Source of the DNA: Rhodanobacter humi
GTDB lineage: Bacteria > Pseudomonadota > Gammaproteobacteria > Xanthomonadales > Rhodanobacteraceae
Direction: 5' to 3'
Assembly (NCBI RefSeq): GCF_041107455.1
Contig: NZ_JBGBPY010000001.1
Coordinates: 2,418,001 to 2,482,000 of the forward strand
Length of the DNA: 64,000 nt
The position numbers were made by a program, and so were the translations under genes. The notes under the pieces are model-generated. The model searched no databases and was not told the origin of the DNA. It was given only the letters and a program-made list of their open reading frames with translations. Shown here in pieces: positions 49,092-58,270 of the stretch. Every line of letters begins with the position of its first letter. Position 1 is the stretch's first letter.

Positions 49092-50168
49092 TCAGGAAAC
49101 CCGGCTGACGGTGGGGTAGCTCACCAGCTTGGGCAGGGTCAGCATGGCTGCGAACCAGCCGCCGTCCATCTCGCGTTCGACCGGTAGCCGCCGCAACGCG
49201 TAGCGATCGATCGCGTGCGCTGGGTTGGTGCCGCAGATGTAGCTGCATGCCGCGCGGTAGCCGGCCGCCATGGCTGCCTCGACCACCCGCGCGTCGAACG
49301 AGGCATCGCCGCCGACCGGGTAGGAGAGCAGCGTGACGGGCGCGCCGAGTTCGCGTTCCAGCGTGGCCCGGGAGTCGCGCAGTTCCGCTTCCAGCGCGGG
49401 CTGGGGCAGCTTGGCCAGCATGCGGTGATGCACGCCGTGCGAGCCGATCTCGCAGCCGGCCGCGTGCATTTCGCGCAACTGCGCCCAGCTCATCGGGCGG
49501 CAGTCGGCATGGCCGGCCGCGGAGGGCAGGTCCCAGGCCTGCTCCAGGCGTGCGATCAGCGCCATCTGGTGGTCGTCGTCGAGATCCTTCAGCCGATCCA
49601 GCACGTGCTGCGCCAGGTCCCGGCGCGCCGCGCGGTCAGTCGGCATGGACCGCGCCAGGTCCAGTTCGGGCAGCGCCAGCTCGCCGACCGGCGCGCGCAG
49701 GATCATGTGCACCAGCCAGTCGTAGGCAAAGGGGCGGCCGCTGTCGATGTGCCCGGTGGAGACGAAGAAGGCGGCCGGTATCTCCAGTTCGCGCAGGACG
49801 GGAAAGGCGTGGTGGTAGTTGTCGTCGTAGCCGTCGTCGAAGGTCACCACCACCGCGTCGGGTGGCAGCCGCTCGCCGGCGTCGATCGCCGCCACCACCT
49901 GTCCCAGCGACATCGGCCGGAAGCGCCGCTTGAGCAGCTGCATCTGCTGCCGGAAGCACTCTGCCGAGGCACTGACCAGGCCAAGGTCGAAGTCGAAGCG
50001 GTCCGGCGCCACGGTCAGCACGCGGTGATAGGCCAGCAGTCGCAGGTCCCGGTACAGGCAACGGCGTGCCTGTTGCAGCAGGCGCAGCAGGCCGGCGTGA
50101 TGGCACAGCCGGCCCAGGTGTCCGCGCAGGCCGAACGGCGTTTCGCGATGTCCGGCGTGATTCAGCAT
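49092..50168 (-). CDS. Polysaccharide deacetylase (NodB domain, CE4)
   Basis: A 358-residue CE4 carbohydrate esterase that removes N-acetyl or O-acetyl groups from a polymer. The NodB motifs VVTFDDGYDDNYHHAFPVL and EIGSHGVHHRML are present; the first Asp and the two His ligands are intact. No signal peptide is obvious, but residues 30-45 could anchor it. It is divergent from the AsnB-ACP-ligase operon, and polysaccharide deacetylases occur next to such amidotransferase/ligase genes in exosortase-type exopolysaccharide clusters. The start at 50168 gives MLNHAGHRE; the upstream in-frame region is noise. Confidence 0.88.
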   Translation of the reverse strand: MLNHAGHRETPFGLRGHLGRLCHHAGLLRLLQQARRCLYRDLRLLAYHRVLTVAPDRFDFDLGLVSASAECFRQQMQLLKRRFRPMSLGQVVAAIDAGERLPPDAVVVTFDDGYDDNYHHAFPVLRELEIPAAFFVSTGHIDSGRPFAYDWLVHMILRAPVGELALPELDLARSMPTDRAARRDLAQHVLDRLKDLDDDHQMALIARLEQAWDLPSAAGHADCRPMSWAQLREMHAAGCEIGSHGVHHRMLAKLPQPALEAELRDSRATLERELGAPVTLLSYPVGGDASFDARVVEAAMAAGYRAACSYICGTNPAHAIDRYALRRLPVEREMDGGWFAAMLTLPKLVSYPTVSRVS

Positions 50169-50392: not shown

Positions 50393-50408
50393 TGTGATGT
50401 AAATCACG
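50393..50408. promoter_or_regulatory. Crp/Clp-type operator
   Basis: TGTGATGTAAATCACG matches the Crp consensus TGTGA-N6-TCACA at nine of ten positions, and the flanks extend the dyad (AAAG before, CTTT after) to a near-perfect 24-bp palindrome. A TTCTAT/TATAGG stretch 18-25 bp downstream could be a -10 box, placing the operator near -35 to -41 like a class II activator site. The xanthomonad homologue is Clp, which responds to c-di-GMP. It lies 237 bp before asnB. Confidence 0.8.
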
Positions 50409-50644
50409 CTTTCTTGATGCATTCTATAGGCACAGACACGTGTCCGGGGAAGCGCCTGCGCAACCGGCCGCGGCACATGGGGTAGGGGGCCACCATGCCG
50501 ACCAGGTCATTGATCGCATCGGTTTCCCATGGCTGGCTGGCGCCGACCATGGGTGGCGGGAGTGTGGCCGCATCGGCAGGAATCGGGCATGCGCTGCAGC
50601 CGTCACCCGCGATCGGTCGGGCGCGGCCCTGAGGAAACGAAGCG
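50409..50644. other. Long 5' leader of the amidotransferase operon
   Basis: About 210 bases separate the putative -10 box from asnB. It contains the inverted repeat CCCATGG (50526-50532) and CCATGGG (50547-50553), and GAGGAAACGAAGCG just before the ATG as ribosome site. No open frame here looks like a protein and I recognise no riboswitch. Confidence 0.45.
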
Positions 50645-52585
50645 ATGTGCGGCATAGCCGGTTTCCTCGGTCCCCCGGATGCACCCGCCGCGGCGCAGGC
50701 CACGCTGCAGCGGATGATCCGCACCCTGCACCATCGCGGGCCGGACGGCTACGGCTTCCATGTCGACGGCGGCGCCGGGCTCGCGCACGCGCGGCTGGCA
50801 GTGATCGACCTGGCCACCGGGGCGCAGCCGATCGCGAACGAACGGCGCAACGTGTGGACGGTGTTCAACGGCGAGATCTTCAACTACCGCAGCCTGCGCG
50901 CGGAGCTGCAGCAGCGCGGCCACCGCTTCGCCACGGCGTCGGACACCGAGGTGATCGTGCACCTGTACGAGGAGCACGGTGACCGGTTCGTCGAGCACCT
51001 CAACGGCCAGTTTGCGATCGCGCTGTGGGACGCCGAGCGGCAGCGCCTGGTGCTGGCGCGCGACCGCTGCGGCGTGCGGCCGCTGTACCACGTGCGCGCG
51101 GGCGGCCGGCACTGGTTTGCCTCGGAGATCAAGGCGCTGCTCGCCGTGCGCCCGGAGCTGGCGCGGCTCGATCCGCAGGGGCTGGCGCAGGCCTTCACGT
51201 TCTGGGGGCCGATCGAGCCGGGCAGCGTGTTCGCCGGCGTCGAGTGCCTGCCGCCGGGGCATCTGCTGGCGATCGAGGGCGACGGTCGCGAGACGCTGAG
51301 CCGCTACTGGGACTGGTCGTTTCCCGAGCAAGGCGCGCCGCAGCGGCGCTGGCAGTCGGTGGAGCAGGCCGCCGGCGAACTGCGCGAGCTGCTCGCCGAT
51401 GCCGTGCGCCTGCGCCTGCAGGCCGACGTGCCGCTGGGCGCCTATCTCAGCGGCGGGCTGGATTCCTCCGCCGTGGTGGCGTTGATGCGCGAGGCGGGCG
51501 CGGCATCGACGCGCACGTTCTCGATCGCCTTCGACGAGGCCGAGTTCGACGAAAGCGCACACCAGCAGGCGATGGTGCGTCACCTGGGCTGCGAGCACAC
51601 CACGCTGCACTGCACGCGCCGCGCGATCGGCGAGGCCTTCCCGCAGCTGATCCGGCACGCCGAGGCGCCGGTGCTGCGCACCGCCGGCGTGCCACTGATG
51701 CTGCTGGCGCAACAGGTGCGCCAGGCCGGCTACACGGTGGTGCTCACCGGCGAAGGTGCGGACGAGGTGTTCGGCGGCTACGACCTGTTCAAGGAGGCCA
51801 AGGTGCGGCGCTTCTGGGCGCGCCAGCCGGACTCGCGTTTCCGACCGCTCCTGCTCGGCCGTTTGTACGGCTATCTGGAAAACTCGCCGGTGCGGCACGC
51901 GGCGCTGGCGCAATCGTTCTTCGGCCGCGGCATGGAGGGCATCGACCGGCCGGTCTTCGCGCACGTGCCGCGCTGGACGAGCTCGCGGCATGCGCTGCGC
52001 TTCCTCGCGCCCGAGCTGCGCGCCGGCATCGACGGCTGGGATCCGCTGGCCTGGTACGAGCAGCGCCTGCCGCCGGCGATCGCACGCTGGAGCCCGTTGG
52101 CGCGCGACCAGTACGTGGAGGCCAAGACCCTGTTGGCCGCCTACCTGCTGCCATCGCAGGGCGACCGTCCCGCGATGGCGCATTCGATCGAGGGGCGCTT
52201 TCCCTTCCTCGACCATCGCGTGGTCGAGTTCGCGAACGCGCTGCCCGCGCACTGGAAGATCCGCGGCATGACCGAGAAATACCTGCTGCGCAAGGCGCTT
52301 GCCGGCCTGCTGCCGGCGGACATCCTCGCGCGCACCAAGCAGCCATACCGCGCGCCTGACCAGTCCAGCTTCTTCGTCGACGGCGAACCGCTGGACTACG
52401 TGGCCGACCTGCTGAGCGCCGAACGCATCCGCGCCGCGGGCTGGTTCGACGCGGCCGTGGTGGGGCGCCTGTTCGAAAAATGCCGGCACGGGCGCGCGAT
52501 CGGCTTCGCCGACAACCAGGCCTTCGTCGGCATCCTCTCGACCATGCTGATCGACGAACTTTTCCTGCGGCGGGCCGCCGCATGA
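50645..52585 (+). CDS. AsnB-type glutamine-hydrolysing amidotransferase
   Basis: A 646-residue class II amidotransferase. The N-terminal glutaminase starts MCGIAGF (Cys2 nucleophile) with LHHRGPDGYG and FNGEIFNYR; the C-terminal ATP-PPi domain has SGGLDSS (269-275) and EGADEVFGGY. It would amidate a carboxylate with glutamine nitrogen through an acyl-AMP. True asparagine synthetases are shorter (about 550); the extra length and the ACP/ligase partners match the 'amidotransferase 1' of exosortase-A loci, so the acceptor is probably not aspartate. Its stop is 18 bp before the ACP gene. The operator at 50393 lies upstream. Confidence 0.93.
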   Translation: MCGIAGFLGPPDAPAAAQATLQRMIRTLHHRGPDGYGFHVDGGAGLAHARLAVIDLATGAQPIANERRNVWTVFNGEIFNYRSLRAELQQRGHRFATASDTEVIVHLYEEHGDRFVEHLNGQFAIALWDAERQRLVLARDRCGVRPLYHVRAGGRHWFASEIKALLAVRPELARLDPQGLAQAFTFWGPIEPGSVFAGVECLPPGHLLAIEGDGRETLSRYWDWSFPEQGAPQRRWQSVEQAAGELRELLADAVRLRLQADVPLGAYLSGGLDSSAVVALMREAGAASTRTFSIAFDEAEFDESAHQQAMVRHLGCEHTTLHCTRRAIGEAFPQLIRHAEAPVLRTAGVPLMLLAQQVRQAGYTVVLTGEGADEVFGGYDLFKEAKVRRFWARQPDSRFRPLLLGRLYGYLENSPVRHAALAQSFFGRGMEGIDRPVFAHVPRWTSSRHALRFLAPELRAGIDGWDPLAWYEQRLPPAIARWSPLARDQYVEAKTLLAAYLLPSQGDRPAMAHSIEGRFPFLDHRVVEFANALPAHWKIRGMTEKYLLRKALAGLLPADILARTKQPYRAPDQSSFFVDGEPLDYVADLLSAERIRAAGWFDAAVVGRLFEKCRHGRAIGFADNQAFVGILSTMLIDELFLRRAAA

Positions 52586-52603
52586 CCCTGACCGGAGCAC
52601 GTG

Positions 52604-52870
52604 ATGTCGACTGAAGCCGCGAGCGTGGAAGCACGCGTCCGCCACTACATCCTGGAGAACCTGCTGTTCAGCGACGACGGCAGCGAGTTGCCGAACGACG
52701 CCTCGCTGCTGGATCGCGGCATCATCGACTCCACCGGCGTGCTGGAAGTGGTGATGTTCCTCGAGGAGGCGTTCGGCATCCGGGTCAAGGCCAGCGAGAT
52801 GCTGCCGGAGAACTTCGACTCGGTGAACAACATCGTGCGCTTCGTCGAGCGCCAGCGGAGCGTCGCGTGA
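52604..52870 (+). CDS. Acyl carrier protein (phosphopantetheine-binding)
   Basis: An 88-residue carrier protein. The attachment site is GIIDSTGVLEVVMFLEE, with the phosphopantetheine Ser in DST where DSL is usual. Helices 1-3 and the acidic recognition helix are normal (FGIRVKASEMLPENF). The ATG at 52604 follows GGAG; a GTG at 52601 is in frame but too close. The stop overlaps the ligase GTG (GTGA), a strong sign of translational coupling. The gene is embedded in a biosynthetic operon rather than a fatty-acid (fab) locus, so it carries a specialised acyl or aminoacyl group. Confidence 0.9.
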   Translation: MSTEAASVEARVRHYILENLLFSDDGSELPNDASLLDRGIIDSTGVLEVVMFLEEAFGIRVKASEMLPENFDSVNNIVRFVERQRSVA

Positions 52871-54432
52871 AAGACCGGATCGCGCCGCGCCGCCTGCTGC
52901 ACGAGGCATTACTGGAGCACGGCGCCGCTCCGGTTCGCGCGCGGCGCACGGCGGTGGTGGTCGAGGGTCAGGCGTACAGCTATGCCGAGCTGCTCGACCG
53001 TGCCCTGCGCCTCGCGGGCGCGCTGCGGCAACGCGGCGTGCAGCGCGGCGATCGCGTGGCGATCTACATGGACAACACCTGGCCTTGCGCGGTGGCGATC
53101 TTCGCGGTGCTGCTGGCCGGTGGCGCGTTCATGGTGGTCAACCCGCTGACCAAGTCGGACAAGCTCGGCTACATGCTCGACGACAGTGGTGCGCGCGTGC
53201 TGCTCAGCGATGGGCATATCGCGCAGGAGTTCCTGCCGCTGCTGGCTGCGCGGCCGGCCTTGCGCGTGATCGCCTCGGGCAAGTTCCCCGAGGGACATGC
53301 CATCGAGGCGTTCGACGCGGTGATCGCCACGGGCGCGCCGTTGGCCGCGCCATCCGCCACCATCGCGCCGGACCTGGCCGCGCTGATCTACACCTCGGGC
53401 TCCACCGGGCAGCCCAAGGGGGTGATGCACACGCACCAGTCCATGCTGTTCGCGGCCGGCAGCCTGATCGAATACCTGCGTCTCGGTCCTGACGAACACA
53501 TCCTGTGCGCGCTGCCGCTGGCCTTCGACTATGGTCTTTACCAGTGGCTGATGGCGGTGCAACTGGGCGCCACCCTGGTGCTGGAACGTTCCTTCGCGTT
53601 CCCCGCGCAGGTGTTCGCGCGCATGCGCGAGTTCGAGGTGACGGTGTTCCCCGGCGTACCCACGATCTTCGCGATGCTGCTGTCCGCGCATCGCGGCGAG
53701 CCGCTGTGCTTTCCTGGCGTGACGCGGGTGACGAACACTGCCGCCGCACTGCCCGACGAGCAGGCGCTGCGGCTGCGCGAGATCTTCCCGCAGGCGCTGA
53801 TCTACAAGATGTACGGGCTCACCGAGTGCAAGCGGGTTTGCTACCTCGAACCCGAGTTGCTGGAAGCCAAGCCTGGTTCCGTGGGCAAGGCGATTCCCGG
53901 CACCGAGGTGTACCTGCGTTCGCCCGCGGGCGGGCCGGTGCCGCCGGGCGAGGCGGGCATTTTGCACGTGCGCGGCCCGCACGTGATGCTGGGCTACTGG
54001 AACCGTCCCGACCTCAGCGCGCAGATGCTGCGGCCCGGCCCGCTGCCGGGCGAGCGCGTGCTGTGCACGCACGACTGGTTCCGCATGGACGCCGAAGGCT
54101 TCCTCTACTTCGTCGGGCGCAGCGACGACATCATCAAGACCCGCGGCGAGAAGGTGAGCCCGGTCGAGGTGGAGAACGCGCTGCACGCGATCGACGGCGT
54201 GCACGAGGCGGCGGTGGCGGGCGTGCCCGACGAGCTGCTGGGCCAGGCGATCCGCGCCTGGGTGGTGCTGCAGCCCGGTGTGGCGCTGAGTCCCGGGCAG
54301 ATCCGCGCGCAATGCATGAAGCGGCTGGAGAACTTCATGGTGCCGCAACAGATCGTGATCTGCGCGGAACTGCCGCGCACCGCCACCGGCAAGGTCAGCC
54401 GCAAGGCCTTGCTCGAACAGCTGCCGGGCTGA
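52867..54432 (+). CDS. AMP-forming acyl-CoA/ACP ligase
   Basis: A 521-residue adenylate-forming enzyme. The A3 core TSGSTGQPKGVMHTH, A5 MYGLTEC, A7 DWFRMDAEGFLYFVGRSDD and A8/A10 KTRGEKVSPVEVE with TATGKVSRKAL are complete. It would activate an acid as acyl-AMP and load it onto CoA or the adjoining ACP. Coupled to the ACP gene by GTGA, it most likely loads that carrier. The length is close to the ligase of exosortase-A loci (about 515). Confidence 0.93.
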   Translation: MKDRIAPRRLLHEALLEHGAAPVRARRTAVVVEGQAYSYAELLDRALRLAGALRQRGVQRGDRVAIYMDNTWPCAVAIFAVLLAGGAFMVVNPLTKSDKLGYMLDDSGARVLLSDGHIAQEFLPLLAARPALRVIASGKFPEGHAIEAFDAVIATGAPLAAPSATIAPDLAALIYTSGSTGQPKGVMHTHQSMLFAAGSLIEYLRLGPDEHILCALPLAFDYGLYQWLMAVQLGATLVLERSFAFPAQVFARMREFEVTVFPGVPTIFAMLLSAHRGEPLCFPGVTRVTNTAAALPDEQALRLREIFPQALIYKMYGLTECKRVCYLEPELLEAKPGSVGKAIPGTEVYLRSPAGGPVPPGEAGILHVRGPHVMLGYWNRPDLSAQMLRPGPLPGERVLCTHDWFRMDAEGFLYFVGRSDDIIKTRGEKVSPVEVENALHAIDGVHEAAVAGVPDELLGQAIRAWVVLQPGVALSPGQIRAQCMKRLENFMVPQQIVICAELPRTATGKVSRKALLEQLPG

Positions 54433-54441
54433 AGGAGATCC

Positions 54442-55329
54442 ATGGACACGTTGTACCGCTCGTTGCGCAACCACCTTGCCGGCTCCCTGCAGACACTGCC
54501 GGACAAGCCGCGCGAAAATCCCGACAACGCCTTGCGGGCGCTCTGGTATGCCGCCGCCGGCCAGCCGCGTTCGGTGGTGACGGCCGGCGAGGGCGAGCTG
54601 CCCCTGCTGGACGACGATGTCGGTCGGCGCCGGCTGCAGCAATTCATCCAACGGCGCCTCGCCGGCGAACCGCTGGCCCATCTCACCGGGCGCGCCCATT
54701 TCATGGGACTGGACATGCTGAGCGGGCCCGCGGCGCTGATCCCGCGCGTGGAAACCGAGCAGCTCGCGCAGGCCGGCATCGAACTGCTGCTTGAGGAGCT
54801 GCGGCATCCCGCCGCCCGCGTGATCGACGTCTGCACCGGCTCAGGCAACCTCGCGTTTGCCATCGCCCACCATGTACCCGACGCCGCAGTCTTCGCCGCC
54901 GACATCAGCGCCGAGGCGCTGGCTCTGGCCGAACACAACCGCCGGCATCTGGGGCTGGAGCGGGTGGAGCTGCGCCGCGGCGACCTGCTGGAGCCCTTCG
55001 GCGACGGGTTCGACGGCACGATCGATCTCGTCCTCTGCGCGCCGCCCTACATCCTGAGCGGCAAGGTGGAACAGATGGCGCCGGAGATCGCCGAGCACGA
55101 GCCGCGGCTGGCCTTCGACGGCGGCCCGCTGGGCGTGACCATCCTGCTGCGCCTGCTGGAGGAATCGCCGCGCCTGCTGCGCCCCGGCGGCTGGCTGGCG
55201 CTGGAAGTCGGGCTGGGCCAGGGGCCGGCACTGGGACGACGGCTGCTGCGCGATCCGCATTACGATGCGGTGCGGCAGCTGGCCGATGCACGCGGCGACG
55301 TGCGGGTGATCCTCGCCCGCCGTGCCTGA
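54442..55329 (+). CDS. PrmC/HemK-like methyltransferase with altered NPPY motif
   Basis: A 295-residue SAM methyltransferase that follows PrmC in layout: N-terminal helical bundle (RRLAGEPLAHLTGRAHFMG), then LIPRVETE, VIDVCTGSGNLAFAI, and the C-terminal APEIAEHEPRLAFDGG. PrmC methylates the Gln of the GGQ loop in release factors and uses NPPY to hold the Gln amide. Here the motif reads CAPPY (LVLCAPPYI), with Asn replaced by Ala. Loss of the amide-binding Asn suggests a changed acceptor, fitting its place in this operon rather than in translation. The ligase stop is 10 bp upstream. Confidence 0.85.
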   Translation: MDTLYRSLRNHLAGSLQTLPDKPRENPDNALRALWYAAAGQPRSVVTAGEGELPLLDDDVGRRRLQQFIQRRLAGEPLAHLTGRAHFMGLDMLSGPAALIPRVETEQLAQAGIELLLEELRHPAARVIDVCTGSGNLAFAIAHHVPDAAVFAADISAEALALAEHNRRHLGLERVELRRGDLLEPFGDGFDGTIDLVLCAPPYILSGKVEQMAPEIAEHEPRLAFDGGPLGVTILLRLLEESPRLLRPGGWLALEVGLGQGPALGRRLLRDPHYDAVRQLADARGDVRVILARRA

Positions 55330-55353
55330 GCGTCAACGCGAAGGAGCACGCAC

Positions 55354-56331
55354 ATGGATGGACTGAACGCCAAGGTCTTCGAGCTGGACTGGGAGGCCGA
55401 AACCGCACGCATCGCCGCGCGCCTGCGCGAGGCCACCGCCCGCGTGCTGCACAAGCGCGGCCTGGTGGTGGCGATCTCCGGCGGCGTGGACAGTGCCGTG
55501 TGCGCCGCGCTGGCGGTGCGCGCGCTGGGGCCGGACAAGGTGTTCACCCTGATCCTGCCGGAACGCGACTCGGCTTCCTCCAGTGCGCGCAACGCCCGCG
55601 TGCTGGCCGAACACCTCGGCGTGCGCACTGAGACCGTCGACATCGCCCCGGCACTGGCCGCGATCGGCTGCTACGCCGCGCGCGACGAGGCGGTGCGCCG
55701 GCTGCTGCCCGACTACACCAGTGACTGGCGCATGAAGATCGCCATCGCCGGCGGCAGCGCGGGCGCCATCAATCACTTCATGCTGATCGCCGAGTCGCCC
55801 GAAGGCATGCGCCACGAATGCACGCTGCCGCTGCCCGAATACCTGCAGATCGTCGCCGCCACCAGCTACAAGCAGCGCCTGCGCAAGACGCTGGAATACT
55901 TCCACGCCGATCGCCTGAACTACGCCGTGGTCGGCACGCCCAACCGGCTGGAATACGACCAGGGTTTCTTCGTGAAGAACGGCGACGGCTCGGCCGACGT
56001 GAAGCCGATCGCGCACCTGTACAAGACCCAGGTCTACGGGCTGGCGAAGCACCTCGGCCTGCCCGACTGCGTGGCCACCGCCGCGCCCACCACCGACACC
56101 TACAGCCTCGCCCAGGGCCAGGACGAGTTCTACTTCGCGCTGCCCTGGGCGCAGATGGACCTCGCGCTGTGGGCGCTGGAACATCGGCGTCCAGCCGGCG
56201 AACTGGCGACCGCGCTGGGCATCGCCGAAGCCGCGGCGGCGGCGGTCTACACCGACATCGAGCGCAAGCGCAGCAGCACGCGCTACCTGCACCTGGCGCC
56301 GCTTCTGCTGGGGCCGGAGTCATCGACGTGA
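55354..56331 (+). CDS. NAD synthetase-like ATP-PPi amide ligase (NadE family)
   Basis: A 325-residue protein of the N-type ATP pyrophosphatase family. The PP-loop VAISGGVDSAVCAALAV and the GTPNRLEYDQGFFVKNGDGS segment are the NadE hallmarks; no glutaminase domain is attached. NadE makes NAD from deamido-NAD and ammonia. Its presence in this operon, next to AsnB, ACP and ligase, suggests either NAD supply for the pathway or, more interestingly, amide formation on a pathway intermediate. Ribosome site GGAG. Whether it is the cell's only NadE cannot be seen here. Confidence 0.88.
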   Translation: MDGLNAKVFELDWEAETARIAARLREATARVLHKRGLVVAISGGVDSAVCAALAVRALGPDKVFTLILPERDSASSSARNARVLAEHLGVRTETVDIAPALAAIGCYAARDEAVRRLLPDYTSDWRMKIAIAGGSAGAINHFMLIAESPEGMRHECTLPLPEYLQIVAATSYKQRLRKTLEYFHADRLNYAVVGTPNRLEYDQGFFVKNGDGSADVKPIAHLYKTQVYGLAKHLGLPDCVATAAPTTDTYSLAQGQDEFYFALPWAQMDLALWALEHRRPAGELATALGIAEAAAAAVYTDIERKRSSTRYLHLAPLLLGPESST

Positions 56332-57383
56332 CGGACGGCGATCAAGCCGCCACCTACCGGACCGCGCTGGCCGAGCTGCCGCGCGATCGTGCGGAGGTGC
56401 TGGCGTTCTGGCGCGACAATCTCGGCGATCCCGCGCGGCACGCGGGCAAGTACGACGGGTTCTACCTCGGCGGCCCGTTCGGGCCGGCCCTCCTGCAGCT
56501 GCTCCGCCACGGCGATGCCGTGATCGGCACCTGCGGCGTGGGCGCGCGGCGCATGCTGTGGCAGGGACGCGAGATCCGCGCGGGCCTGCTCGCGGACATG
56601 GCGGTGGACGCGCGCCACCGCACGCTGGGTCCGGCGCTGATGCTGCAGGAGGCGCTGGTCGCCGCGGCGGCGGGGCGCTACGACCTGCTCTACGGTTTCC
56701 CCAACCGCAAGTCGCTGCCGGTGGTGCGGCGGCTGGGCTACGCGGTGCTCGGCGAGCTGTCGCGCCATGCACGGGTGCTGCAGCACGCCCACTATCTGCG
56801 GCGGCGCCTGCCGCATTGGCTGGCCGCGTTGCTGGGGAACGCGCTCGATGCGTGGCACATCTTGCTGGATGGCTTGCGTGCGCTGCCGGGCCGAAGCGTG
56901 ACGGCGACCTGGTCGGAGCAGGCCGACCCCCGGATGGATGCGCTGTGGCAGGCCTCGCCGCATGGCGATGGCCTGCTCGGCGTGCATGACGCGGCGTTGG
57001 CGCGCTGGCGTTTCGACCAGTCGCCGCTGGCCAGCGTGCGTTATCTGCTGCTTGGCGACCGACGCGACGGCGCGCTGCGGGCATGGTTCGCCTGCGAGCG
57101 CAGGGATCGCGTGCTGCAGGTGCGCGACTACTGGTCGGAGCGCGGCGTGGAAGGCATCGACCACCGGCTGGTGCTGGCGCTGGTGCGCGCGGCGCGGCGC
57201 GAAGGCTGCGCCTCGGTCACGCTGGAATGCGCGGCCCCGGCGGCGCGGATGGCGGGCTGGCGTCGCGCCGGGTTCGTCCTGCGCGAGGGCCAGCCCGTGG
57301 TCGGCAAGTGGCTGGGCGCCAGCCCGGCCCCGGCCGGGCTGGCGCGGGACTGGCACCTGACCGAGGCCGACGCGGACGAGTGA
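56328..57383 (+). CDS. GNAT-like acyltransferase, last gene of the amidotransferase operon
   Basis: A 351-residue protein with two GNAT-like halves. The first (about 1-190) has the GNAT beta-strand/acyl-CoA segment LLADMAVDARHRTLGPALMLQ and DLLYGFPNRKSLPVVRRLGY; the second (about 200-351) repeats the fold with HRLVLALVRAARREG. FemAB-like or GNAT proteins accompany exosortase-A loci, so this could acylate or aminoacylate a pathway product. The GTG at 56328 overlaps the nadE stop by four bases (GTGA), indicating coupled translation. The substrate is unknown. Confidence 0.78.
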   Translation: MTDGDQAATYRTALAELPRDRAEVLAFWRDNLGDPARHAGKYDGFYLGGPFGPALLQLLRHGDAVIGTCGVGARRMLWQGREIRAGLLADMAVDARHRTLGPALMLQEALVAAAAGRYDLLYGFPNRKSLPVVRRLGYAVLGELSRHARVLQHAHYLRRRLPHWLAALLGNALDAWHILLDGLRALPGRSVTATWSEQADPRMDALWQASPHGDGLLGVHDAALARWRFDQSPLASVRYLLLGDRRDGALRAWFACERRDRVLQVRDYWSERGVEGIDHRLVLALVRAARREGCASVTLECAAPAARMAGWRRAGFVLREGQPVVGKWLGASPAPAGLARDWHLTEADADE

Positions 57384-57438: not shown

Positions 57439-58038
57439 TCAGCCCGCGACGATGAAGCGCTGGCCGTCGTCCATGAAGGCCTTCTCGCCGAAGCCGCTTT
57501 CGTGCGAACCGAACGGCATCTGCGCACGCAGCTTCCACGACGCCGGCACGTTCCAGGTTGCGCGGGCGGCGTCGTCCACCAGCGGGTTGTAGTGCTGCAG
57601 GCTGGCGCCGATGCCGGCATCGGTCAGCGCCAACCACACCGCGAACTGCGCCATGCCGGCCGAGTGCTCGGACCACACCGGGAAGTTGTCCGCGTACAGC
57701 GCGAACTTCTCCTGCAAGCCCTTCACCACGTCCTGGTCTTCGTAGAACAGCACGGTGCCTGCGCCGGCGGCGAAGCTGTCGAGCTTGGCGGCGGTCTGCG
57801 CAAAGGCCTCGGCTGGCACGACCTTGGCGAGAGCCTCCTTGGCCAGCGCCCAGAACTTCACGCTCTGCTCGCCGAACAGGATCACGGCGCGCGAGCTCTG
57901 CGAATTGAACGACGACGGCGTGTGCTTGATGGCCTGCTGGATGAGGTTGTTCAGGGCGTCCTTGTCCATGTTCACGTTGCGGCCCAGCGCGTACTGGGTG
58001 CGGCGCTTCTTGAGGTGTTCGATCACGGCGTTGCTCAT
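57439..58038 (-). CDS. Nitroreductase-family oxidoreductase (Frm2/Hbn1-like)
   Basis: A 199-residue FMN-dependent nitroreductase-type enzyme. The N-terminus RRTQYALGRNVN, TPSSFNSQSSRAVIL, and the later SAGMAQFAVWLALTDAGIG are typical of the fatty-acid-repressed Frm2/Hbn1 group that reduces nitroaromatics or quinones. Two in-frame ATGs (58044, 58038) exist; GGAGGA directly abuts the first, leaving no spacer, so 58038 with about six bases of spacing is the start. The gene is single. Confidence 0.9.
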   Translation of the reverse strand: MSNAVIEHLKKRRTQYALGRNVNMDKDALNNLIQQAIKHTPSSFNSQSSRAVILFGEQSVKFWALAKEALAKVVPAEAFAQTAAKLDSFAAGAGTVLFYEDQDVVKGLQEKFALYADNFPVWSEHSAGMAQFAVWLALTDAGIGASLQHYNPLVDDAARATWNVPASWKLRAQMPFGSHESGFGEKAFMDDGQRFIVAG

Positions 58039-58270
58039 GGACATTCCTCCGTAAAAAGAAAAGCCGAATCCGCGGAACGGCGGGGCCGTTCCGGACTCGT
58101 GTACGTGTTCGGGATGGCGCCTATGTTGGGCGCGCTGTGCCGCGCCGGCTAGCCGGCAATCCGTGGTTACTCCGTTTCCCGAGGGAAACGCTGGCGGGGT
58201 CGCGGGAGCACATCCAGCGTGCGATGGCCTTGGCTCCGATCGACGTGGAGCCGCGCTCCCGCAGGCAACT
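58039..58270. other. Gap between nitroreductase and mutM
   Basis: No gene. Two palindromes stand out: the perfect 14-mer GCCGGCTAGCCGGC (58144-58157) and a 7-bp stem CGTTTCC/GGAAACG (58173-58190). The latter may end the mutM transcript; the former is unexplained. Confidence 0.45.

Follow-up and report, generated by a model that had tools for sequence, protein, structure and literature searches.

A carrier-protein operon of Rhodanobacter humi as a possible acyl-tailoring cassette with links to exopolysaccharide loci

A 64-kb stretch of the 4.15-Mb genome of Rhodanobacter humi (genome G000, C1:2418001-2482000), called the window throughout, contains an operon of six genes that encode an AsnB-type glutamine amidotransferase, a discrete acyl carrier protein (ACP), a discrete adenylation enzyme (the ligase), a PrmC-like methyltransferase, a NadE-like amide synthetase and a GNAT-like acyltransferase. 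An earlier, sequence-only reading of the window suggested that these genes load an acid onto the carrier, amidate it, modify it and transfer it, and the ligase pocket and synteny data presented here fit that suggestion. The operon and its relatives in other genomes are referred to as cassettes.

Operon layout and control region

The six genes are intact, and the gaps between them are, in gene order, +18, -4, +9, +24 and -4 bp. Both -4 bp junctions (ACP/ligase and NadE-like/GNAT-like) are GTGA overlaps; coordinates, gaps and overlaps all bear out the tight packing described from the sequence. For the ACP, a GTG one codon upstream is also open as a start. Catalytic motifs are kept, namely Cys2 and SGGLDSS in AsnB, the phosphopantetheine motif DST in the ACP, TSGSTG and the A10 residue Lys509 in the ligase, SGGVDS in the NadE-like protein and RxxGxA in the GNAT-like protein. 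None of the six genes encodes an exporter, a release enzyme or a malonyl acyltransferase. The gene families first assigned were recovered by profile for the first five genes (Table 1), but the last gene, assigned as GNAT-like, had no Pfam or NCBIfam match at E 0.001.

Between AsnB and the divergent polysaccharide deacetylase lies a putative Crp/Clp-type site, TGTGATGTAAATCACG, which is the sole place in the window with at most one mismatch to the Crp-type pattern. It is among eight matches to TGTGAN6TCACR in the genome and among 19 genome places within one mismatch of TGTGAN6TCACA, for which a reversed-pattern control gave nine per strand. The description of the site as strong, and of the divergent gene as a polysaccharide deacetylase, both held. 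A Crp-type match with at most two mismatches was found 200-255 bp upstream of AsnB in three of the seven relatives examined (L001, L003 and L005) and was not found there in the other four (L002, L006, L019 and L026). A promoter scan returned no sigma-70-type promoter and one terminator-like site, against a mean of 2.5 in shuffled sequences. The start codon of the deacetylase is uncertain, its reading frame being open to 50390, and no signal peptide was seen by eye.

Table 1. Features of the operon and its upstream region, in window positions.
Feature	Position	Strand	Remarks
Polysaccharide deacetylase (PF01522)	49092..50165	-	87.6 bits, cut-off 23.1; divergent from operon
Crp/Clp-type site TGTGATGTAAATCACG	50393..50408	.	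Putative, pattern match; between the divergent genes for deacetylase and AsnB
AsnB-type glutamine amidotransferase, 646 aa	50645..52585	+	Asn_synthase 323 bits
Discrete carrier protein (ACP), 88 aa	52604..52870	+	PP-binding 21.6 bits, cut-off 20.8
Discrete adenylation enzyme (ligase), 521 aa	52867..54432	+	AMP-binding 306 bits; VinN-like pocket
PrmC-like methyltransferase, 295 aa	54442..55329	+	PrmC/HemK TIGR03534 200.4 bits, cut-off 199.1; APPY for NPPY
NadE-like amide synthetase, 325 aa	55354..56331	+	NF002048 452 bits, cut-off 313; without glutaminase domain
GNAT-like acyltransferase, 351 aa	56328..57383	+	GTG start overlaps NadE-like stop; probably tandem

Conservation of the cassette

Related loci were fetched by similarity to the NadE-like protein from a one-genome-per-species collection, as the best 80 of at least 582 relatives, and some of the fetched stretches and gene runs are cut by contig ends. 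In these 80 loci, the same-strand run with the NadE-like gene includes the ACP in 72, the ligase in 70, AsnB in 43, the GNAT in 39 and PrmC in 32. Two gene orders recur, with the genes in brackets variably present: (AsnB)-ACP-ligase-(PrmC)-NadE-(GNAT) and (GNAT)-(AsnB)-ligase-ACP-NadE-(PrmC). AsnB and ACP adjoin in many loci. Rhizobial plasmids carry a stand-alone four-gene core, asnB-acp-ligase-nadE, and two others carry it with an extra gene of about 370 aa in front.

A search with NF002048 across 299 Pseudomonadota genomes, made to avoid sampling close relatives only, gave 12 positive genomes including R. humi itself. All 11 others carry an ACP and a ligase in the same gene cluster, and ten of the 11 have AsnB in the fetched stretch. 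From the run counts and these distant clusters, it follows that the gene set is far from a chance assembly and that the NadE-ACP-ligase trio is its core. The expectation that all six genes would be conserved together was thus upheld for this core, with AsnB widely kept, but not for the whole set: PrmC and GNAT are variable, and the full six-gene run is confined to a few loci of the Rhodanobacter/Dyella type.

Searches of an open-access library, which lacks most subscription journals, turned up no paper on the cassette. None of the terms looked for occurs in PMC1569441, and the accessible part of PMC2922099 describes a different system. Each enzyme is of a known kind, and it is the combined cassette for which no earlier description was found.

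Enzymes of the cassette

By sequence, the closest solved relative of AsnB is the hydroxyamidotransferase 7ylz. Among solved structures, the ACP is matched best by carriers of amino acids, namely peptidyl, D-alanyl and PltL carrier proteins. The family profile of the GNAT-like protein matched GNAT acetyltransferases weakly in the PDB set (best E 4e-4). Its AlphaFold2 model is confident (pLDDT 93.9), and the order of secondary-structure elements in the model indicates that the protein is probably a tandem GNAT. A paralogue with 37% identity lies inside the exopolysaccharide (EPS)/non-ribosomal peptide synthetase (NRPS) locus of the same genome.

The NadE-like protein has the NadE fold and the ATP-pyrophosphatase motif, and the C-terminal HK of archaeal NadE is substituted in the NadE-like alignment. 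A separate NAD synthetase is encoded in R. humi by a frame of 588 aa at C1:1223836. Similarly, two HemK-family paralogues in the genome outscore the operon copy (259.6 and 245.1 versus 166.5 bits). Among the 32 members of the PrmC-like family in which the catalytic site was aligned, 14 have NPPY, nine APPY, seven LPPY, one SPPY and one IPPY; NPPY is thus lost in 18 of the 32, and the window copy has APPY. Given the other copies in the genome and the cassette context, plain housekeeping in NAD synthesis or release-factor methylation was judged unlikely. As a separate observation, NF002048 also matches Methanosarcina acetivorans, a control genome.

Ligase pocket and predicted substrate

The best match in a profile search with the ligase family was a multi-domain NRPS, LgrA (490 bits in total, 262 for the better domain), which shared the top places with a second multi-domain synthetase; among single-domain chains, VinN (3wvn) ranked highest, with 367 bits. 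VinN activates 3-methylaspartate. According to the accessible part of PMC11253843, it holds the amino group with D230, while F231 and S299 are bulkier than their GrsA counterparts and a loop shortened by one residue bears K330-R331. When the pocket positions were mapped by motif with GrsA numbering, rather than by residue alignment to VinN, the window ligase was found to carry D221, Y222, T291 (Thr where VinN has Ser299) and K322-R323. The loop in the ligase family profile is one residue shorter than that of the first A domain of LgrA and two shorter than that of the second.

The pocket was tabulated for 93 aligned ligases, restricted to proteins of 430-560 aa; by this count, seven loci have no ligase (L004, L016, L029, L032, L044, L051 and L063), all of them with PrmC. 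R323 and M315 are invariant in all 93 ligases. At position 221, 38 ligases have Asp, and the remaining 55 have Ser, Ala, Gly, Thr or Asn. R331 of VinN is taken here to hold the second carboxylate of the substrate, and the invariant Arg at this position suggests that the cassette ligases act on a dicarboxylate. An amino group on the substrate would be expected only in the Asp-class ligases. Because the R. humi pocket has Asp221 besides Arg323, its substrate is predicted to be an amino-dicarboxylate, probably aspartate-like. That the ligase loads the carrier protein is well supported.

The methyltransferase follows the pocket aspartate

The PrmC-like methyltransferase (METHYLTRANSFERASE) follows the Asp of the ligase pocket. 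Among the 90 loci with a counted ligase, it accompanies an Asp-type ligase in 33 of 38 cases but is present in none of the 52 loci whose ligases are all non-Asp, where a locus with two ligases was scored as Asp-type if either is and presence means anywhere in the fetched stretch (in L092 and L093, the copy lies 9-10 kb from the operon). Some of the rows compared here are near-duplicates (L092/L093, L048/L117 and L007/L119), so Fisher values are not probabilities. Five Asp-type loci lack the methyltransferase: an additional ligase of the non-Asp type sits next to NadE in L014, L062 and L079, and in L052 and L055 the ligase is encoded on the opposite strand. Of the seven PrmC loci without a counted ligase, all but L004 were rechecked after the association had been seen; each of these six genomes has exactly one ligase at E 1e-60, and every one is Asp-type.

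On a tree of all 93 ligases, built with the pocket columns masked, the Asp state changes at least five times. Three independent pairs fall on supported branches; across these, PrmC changed the same way in 2.1 on average, showed no difference in 0.9 and never changed the opposite way. In non-Asp loci, another methyltransferase (cluster c12, ten loci) is encoded close to AsnB, so methylation as such may extend beyond the Asp class. Should the mechanism proposed below be right, the association would supply a simple genomic rule, in which the pocket Asp and the PrmC-like methyltransferase occur together.

Exopolysaccharide and NRPS/PKS context

The absence of exosortase noted for the window extends to the whole R. 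humi genome, where PF09721 had no match, and the family was also absent from the 28 other Xanthomonadales cassette genomes searched. Across a census of 60 cassette genomes, drawn from 49 of the 80 loci and 11 genomes of the phylum search, exosortase was present in 19 and absent in 41. Each of the 29 Xanthomonadales genomes has exactly one XrtA-type EpsB_2 above cut-off. Read from coordinates, no more than about 30 kb separates the cassette from this sole EpsB_2 in 19 of the 29; in the other ten, the cassette is on another contig or at a distance of 95 kb (R. humi) or about 187 kb (G322). Of the 80 fetched loci, 25 contain EPS assembly markers and 34 contain an EPS marker of any sort. Four Luteimonas genomes with a ligase-less PrmC cassette have the missing ligase within 450 bp of EpsB_2.

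Whether exosortase or EPS genes lie beyond the window had been raised by the sequence-only reading. An XrtA-type EPS locus does, at about C1:2333-2376 kb, 95 kb from the operon and about 42 kb outside the window, but it is accompanied by no exosortase. Its EpsB_2 scores above cut-off, and relatives of four other XrtA-set proteins (the tyrosine kinase, two hydrolases and the outer-membrane protein) stay below their own cut-offs. Genes for export, chain length and a flippase were named by eye in the locus, and a UDP-sugar dehydrogenase is also present. One of the 19 Crp-like places in the genome precedes the called EpsB_2 start by about 105 bp.

An NRPS/polyketide synthase (PKS) line (G000:C1:2349897-2366824; L122, L126) lies inside this EPS locus, about 102-119 kb before the operon. 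Its proteins have the architectures C-A-T, C-A-T-C-A-T and A-T-KS-AT-T-aminotransferase, with a cupin-like gene alongside. Condensation domains occur in 16 of the 29 Xanthomonadales genomes and lie at most 26 kb from EpsB_2 in 13. They lie within that distance in 11 of the 12 genomes with a PrmC cassette, and about 12 kb from the cassette in the twelfth (G300), versus 2 of 17 genomes without PrmC; this association is inflated by kinship and partly reflects shared ancestry. A GNAT of the operon family lies between NRPS and EpsB_2 in four genomes (G000, G299, G302 and G315). Six of the fetched stretches contain NRPS- or PKS-type genes (L003, L020, L036, L047, L061 and L066).

Comparison with known systems

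The nearest known context is the XrtA/PEP-CTERM EPS module, with the ligase TIGR03098, the amidotransferase TIGR03108 and the decarboxylase TIGR03099; its ligases and AsnB proteins are of the same broad families. Some cassettes adjoin XrtA-type EPS genes, and one locus (L013) has TIGR03099 above cut-off. The cassette differs in adding NadE, PrmC and GNAT. Membership of the documented exosortase-A module was ruled out on two grounds, the lack of exosortase in all 29 Xanthomonadales cassette genomes and the ligase and AsnB scores, and the operon stands apart from that module, as had been suspected. The window ligase scores 412.1 against a TIGR03098 cut-off of 592.35 and the window AsnB 441.2 against a TIGR03108 cut-off of 816.9; across the cassettes scored, six ligases gave 362-491 (cut-off 592) and three AsnB proteins 441-444 (cut-off 817).

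The VinN/VinL pair of vicenistatin resembles the cassette in its discrete ligase, with a pocket of Asp, aromatic residue, Ser/Thr and Lys-Arg and a short loop, as described in the accessible part of PMC11253843. The operon differs in having amide-forming enzymes instead of a pyridoxal-phosphate-dependent decarboxylase or a PKS starter function, and 55 of the 93 ligases lack the Asp. VinL is a discrete carrier, like the cassette ACP. The adjoining AsnB-type gene and discrete carrier also recall the glutarimide polyketide loading module, in which, according to a proposal, an AsnB-type enzyme turns the free carboxylate of an acid on the carrier into an amide (PMC4853412, in its accessible part). 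That module, as far as the same part describes it, is loaded by a malonyl transacylase rather than an AMP ligase, belongs to a polyketide context and is without NadE or PrmC.

The DltA/DltC and PltF/PltL systems likewise combine a discrete A-domain enzyme with a small carrier, and D-alanyl carriers and PltL are among the best ACP matches; they differ in involving no amidation or methylation. The Dlt transferase is an MBOAT, whereas the cassette would use a GNAT. The Zoogloea/Aquincola floc EPS cluster offers another example of AsnB-type genes in an EPS context: according to the accessible part of PMC9012009, this large cluster includes two genes for asparagine synthetase.

Proposed mechanism and alternatives

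It is tentatively proposed, at somewhat less than an even chance, that the genes form an acyl-tailoring cassette serving EPS, which would load, amidate, methylate and transfer an acyl group. The ligase would adenylate one carboxylate of a dicarboxylic acid held by Arg323 and then load the carrier; in R. humi, the substrate would be an amino-dicarboxylate such as L-aspartate, activated in the manner of VinN. The free second carboxylate would be amidated by the NadE-like enzyme, AsnB or both, with ammonia from the AsnB glutaminase. The PrmC-like enzyme may then methylate the amino-acid product, perhaps at the amine. Finally, the GNAT would take the completed acyl group off the carrier and attach it to an amino group, most probably one on an EPS sugar, and the deacetylase is a candidate partner that could free this amino group. 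Such a combination of deacetylase and N-acyltransferase recalls the logic of Nod-factor assembly. The proposal draws on the co-conservation of the genes, the additional NadE and HemK-family copies, the amino-acid/NRPS character of carrier and ligase, the pocket features shared with VinN, the PrmC/Asp association, the EPS genes near many cassettes, the Crp-like place before EpsB_2 and the glutarimide precedent. Gene content, conservation, pocket residues, co-distribution and nearness to EPS genes are read from sequence, and the substrate, the order of steps, the amide-forming enzyme, the methylation site and the acceptor are all inferred.

Several observations weigh against this proposal. The NadE-like protein keeps most of the residues that we take to contact deamido-NAD and ATP, and may therefore act on a nucleotide-linked substrate. 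The six alphaproteobacterial PrmC-like relatives listed all keep NPPY, so its loss is not general. A sign test on the methyltransferase is not significant because only three supported pairs, and hence few independent events, are available. In a search for alignment columns that vary with the pocket class, none reached the chosen threshold in NadE, AsnB or ACP, and there is thus no direct sign that NadE or AsnB acts on the same acyl group; the missing covariation fits action on a common carboxylate but is no evidence for it. AsnB is found anywhere in the fetched stretch in 60 of the 80 loci and is missing from 20, GNAT is missing by profile from 31, and deacetylase-like genes are within the stretch in only 31. 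Sinorhizobium has the four core genes alone, with GNAT, PrmC-like and polysaccharide-type genes about 9-10 kb off. The 24 kb scanned around the operon contained no EPS markers, and strict EPS markers occur in 5 of 32 PrmC loci versus 20 of 48 others. Correspondingly, EpsB_2 lies within about 30 kb of the cassette in all 17 Xanthomonadales genomes without cassette PrmC versus 2 of 12 with it, which is the class of the window. The EPS link is strong in the PrmC-free class and, given this class split, indirect for the class of the window.

The rarity of PrmC-type cassettes near EpsB_2 also bears on a different product. The cassette could make a soluble or lipid-linked small molecule, such as an amidated aminoacyl metabolite or an NRPS/PKS building block, with the EPS linkage reflecting shared regulation or shared islands. 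This is considered somewhat unlikely, although it would accommodate the NRPS/PKS-type genes in six fetched stretches, the GNAT paralogue beside the C-A-T and A-T-KS-AT-T-aminotransferase assembly line of the R. humi EPS locus, the stand-alone rhizobial operons and the condensation domains near EpsB_2 or the cassette in 12 of 12 PrmC genomes versus 2 of 17 others. Yet 15 of the 17 PrmC-free genomes have no condensation domain near EpsB_2 while all 17 cassettes lie close to it, and the operon has neither exporter nor release enzyme. AsnB-type enzymes of other polysaccharide loci are thought to make uronamides, and here too AsnB might amidate uronic acids of the polysaccharide in this way, the ligase, ACP, NadE and GNAT being a separate acylation system within one regulon rather than one pathway. 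Among the four core genes, AsnB shows the loosest association (absent from 20 loci, and in the run with NadE in 43 of 80 versus 70-72 for ligase and ACP), and the UDP-sugar dehydrogenase of the EPS locus favours this division, which is nevertheless unlikely: AsnB adjoins ACP in many loci, including rhizobial operons without sugar genes. Accidental co-transcription of a back-up NAD synthetase and a back-up release-factor methyltransferase is highly improbable. Both proteins exceed their cut-offs (NF002048 452 over 313; TIGR03534 200.4 over 199.1), and the presumed deamido-NAD and ATP contacts are mostly kept; against this stand the other NadE and HemK-family copies in the genome, the clustering of the NadE subfamily with ACP and ligase in 11 of 11 distant genomes, the loss of NPPY in 18 of 32 PrmC-like members and the way in which PrmC presence follows the ligase pocket.

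If the acyl-tailoring proposal is correct, a large number of genes that at present carry annotations such as NAD synthase, asparagine synthase, long-chain-acyl-CoA ligase or release-factor methyltransferase would join one surface-polymer pathway in Pseudomonadota, and perhaps also in Chloroflexi and Gemmatimonadota (metagenome-assembled L054 and L080, assigned from record titles only). The housekeeping folds of NadE and PrmC would gain a new chemical role, and part of XrtA-type EPS chemistry would become testable. A more specific version, rather unlikely as a whole, is a widespread route to peptide-like EPS decoration, in which a carrier-bound aspartate-type acid (succinate-type where the pocket lacks Asp) would be amidated by a repurposed NAD synthetase and an AsnB homologue, methylated by a repurposed release-factor methyltransferase and put on amino sugars. 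In Rhodanobacteraceae and Luteimonas, it would act with the NRPS/PKS line of the EPS locus to give a peptidyl-polysaccharide hybrid.

Other genes near the cassette

Further genes adjoin the cassette in particular lineages. In five betaproteobacterial loci (L053, L066, L068, L070 and L074), the cassette is joined by a FabH-like ketosynthase III and by another small protein, carrier-like by eye and with no Pfam hit. In L110, L114 and L116, the NadE-like gene has a neighbour that encodes about 860-910 aa, and the L110 copy consists of AMP-binding and thioesterase domains. On the Sinorhizobium (L092) and Rhizobium (L107) plasmids, the four-gene operon adjoins minCDE, on different sides. A nitroreductase-family gene (window 57439-58044, convergent) directly follows the R. 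humi operon; it was found in one of the 80 loci (L001, the closest relative) and is probably unrelated. Of the 81 stretches compared, 17 have a glucose/sorbosone dehydrogenase gene (cluster c8, e.g. L008:6872-8083) close to the cassette.

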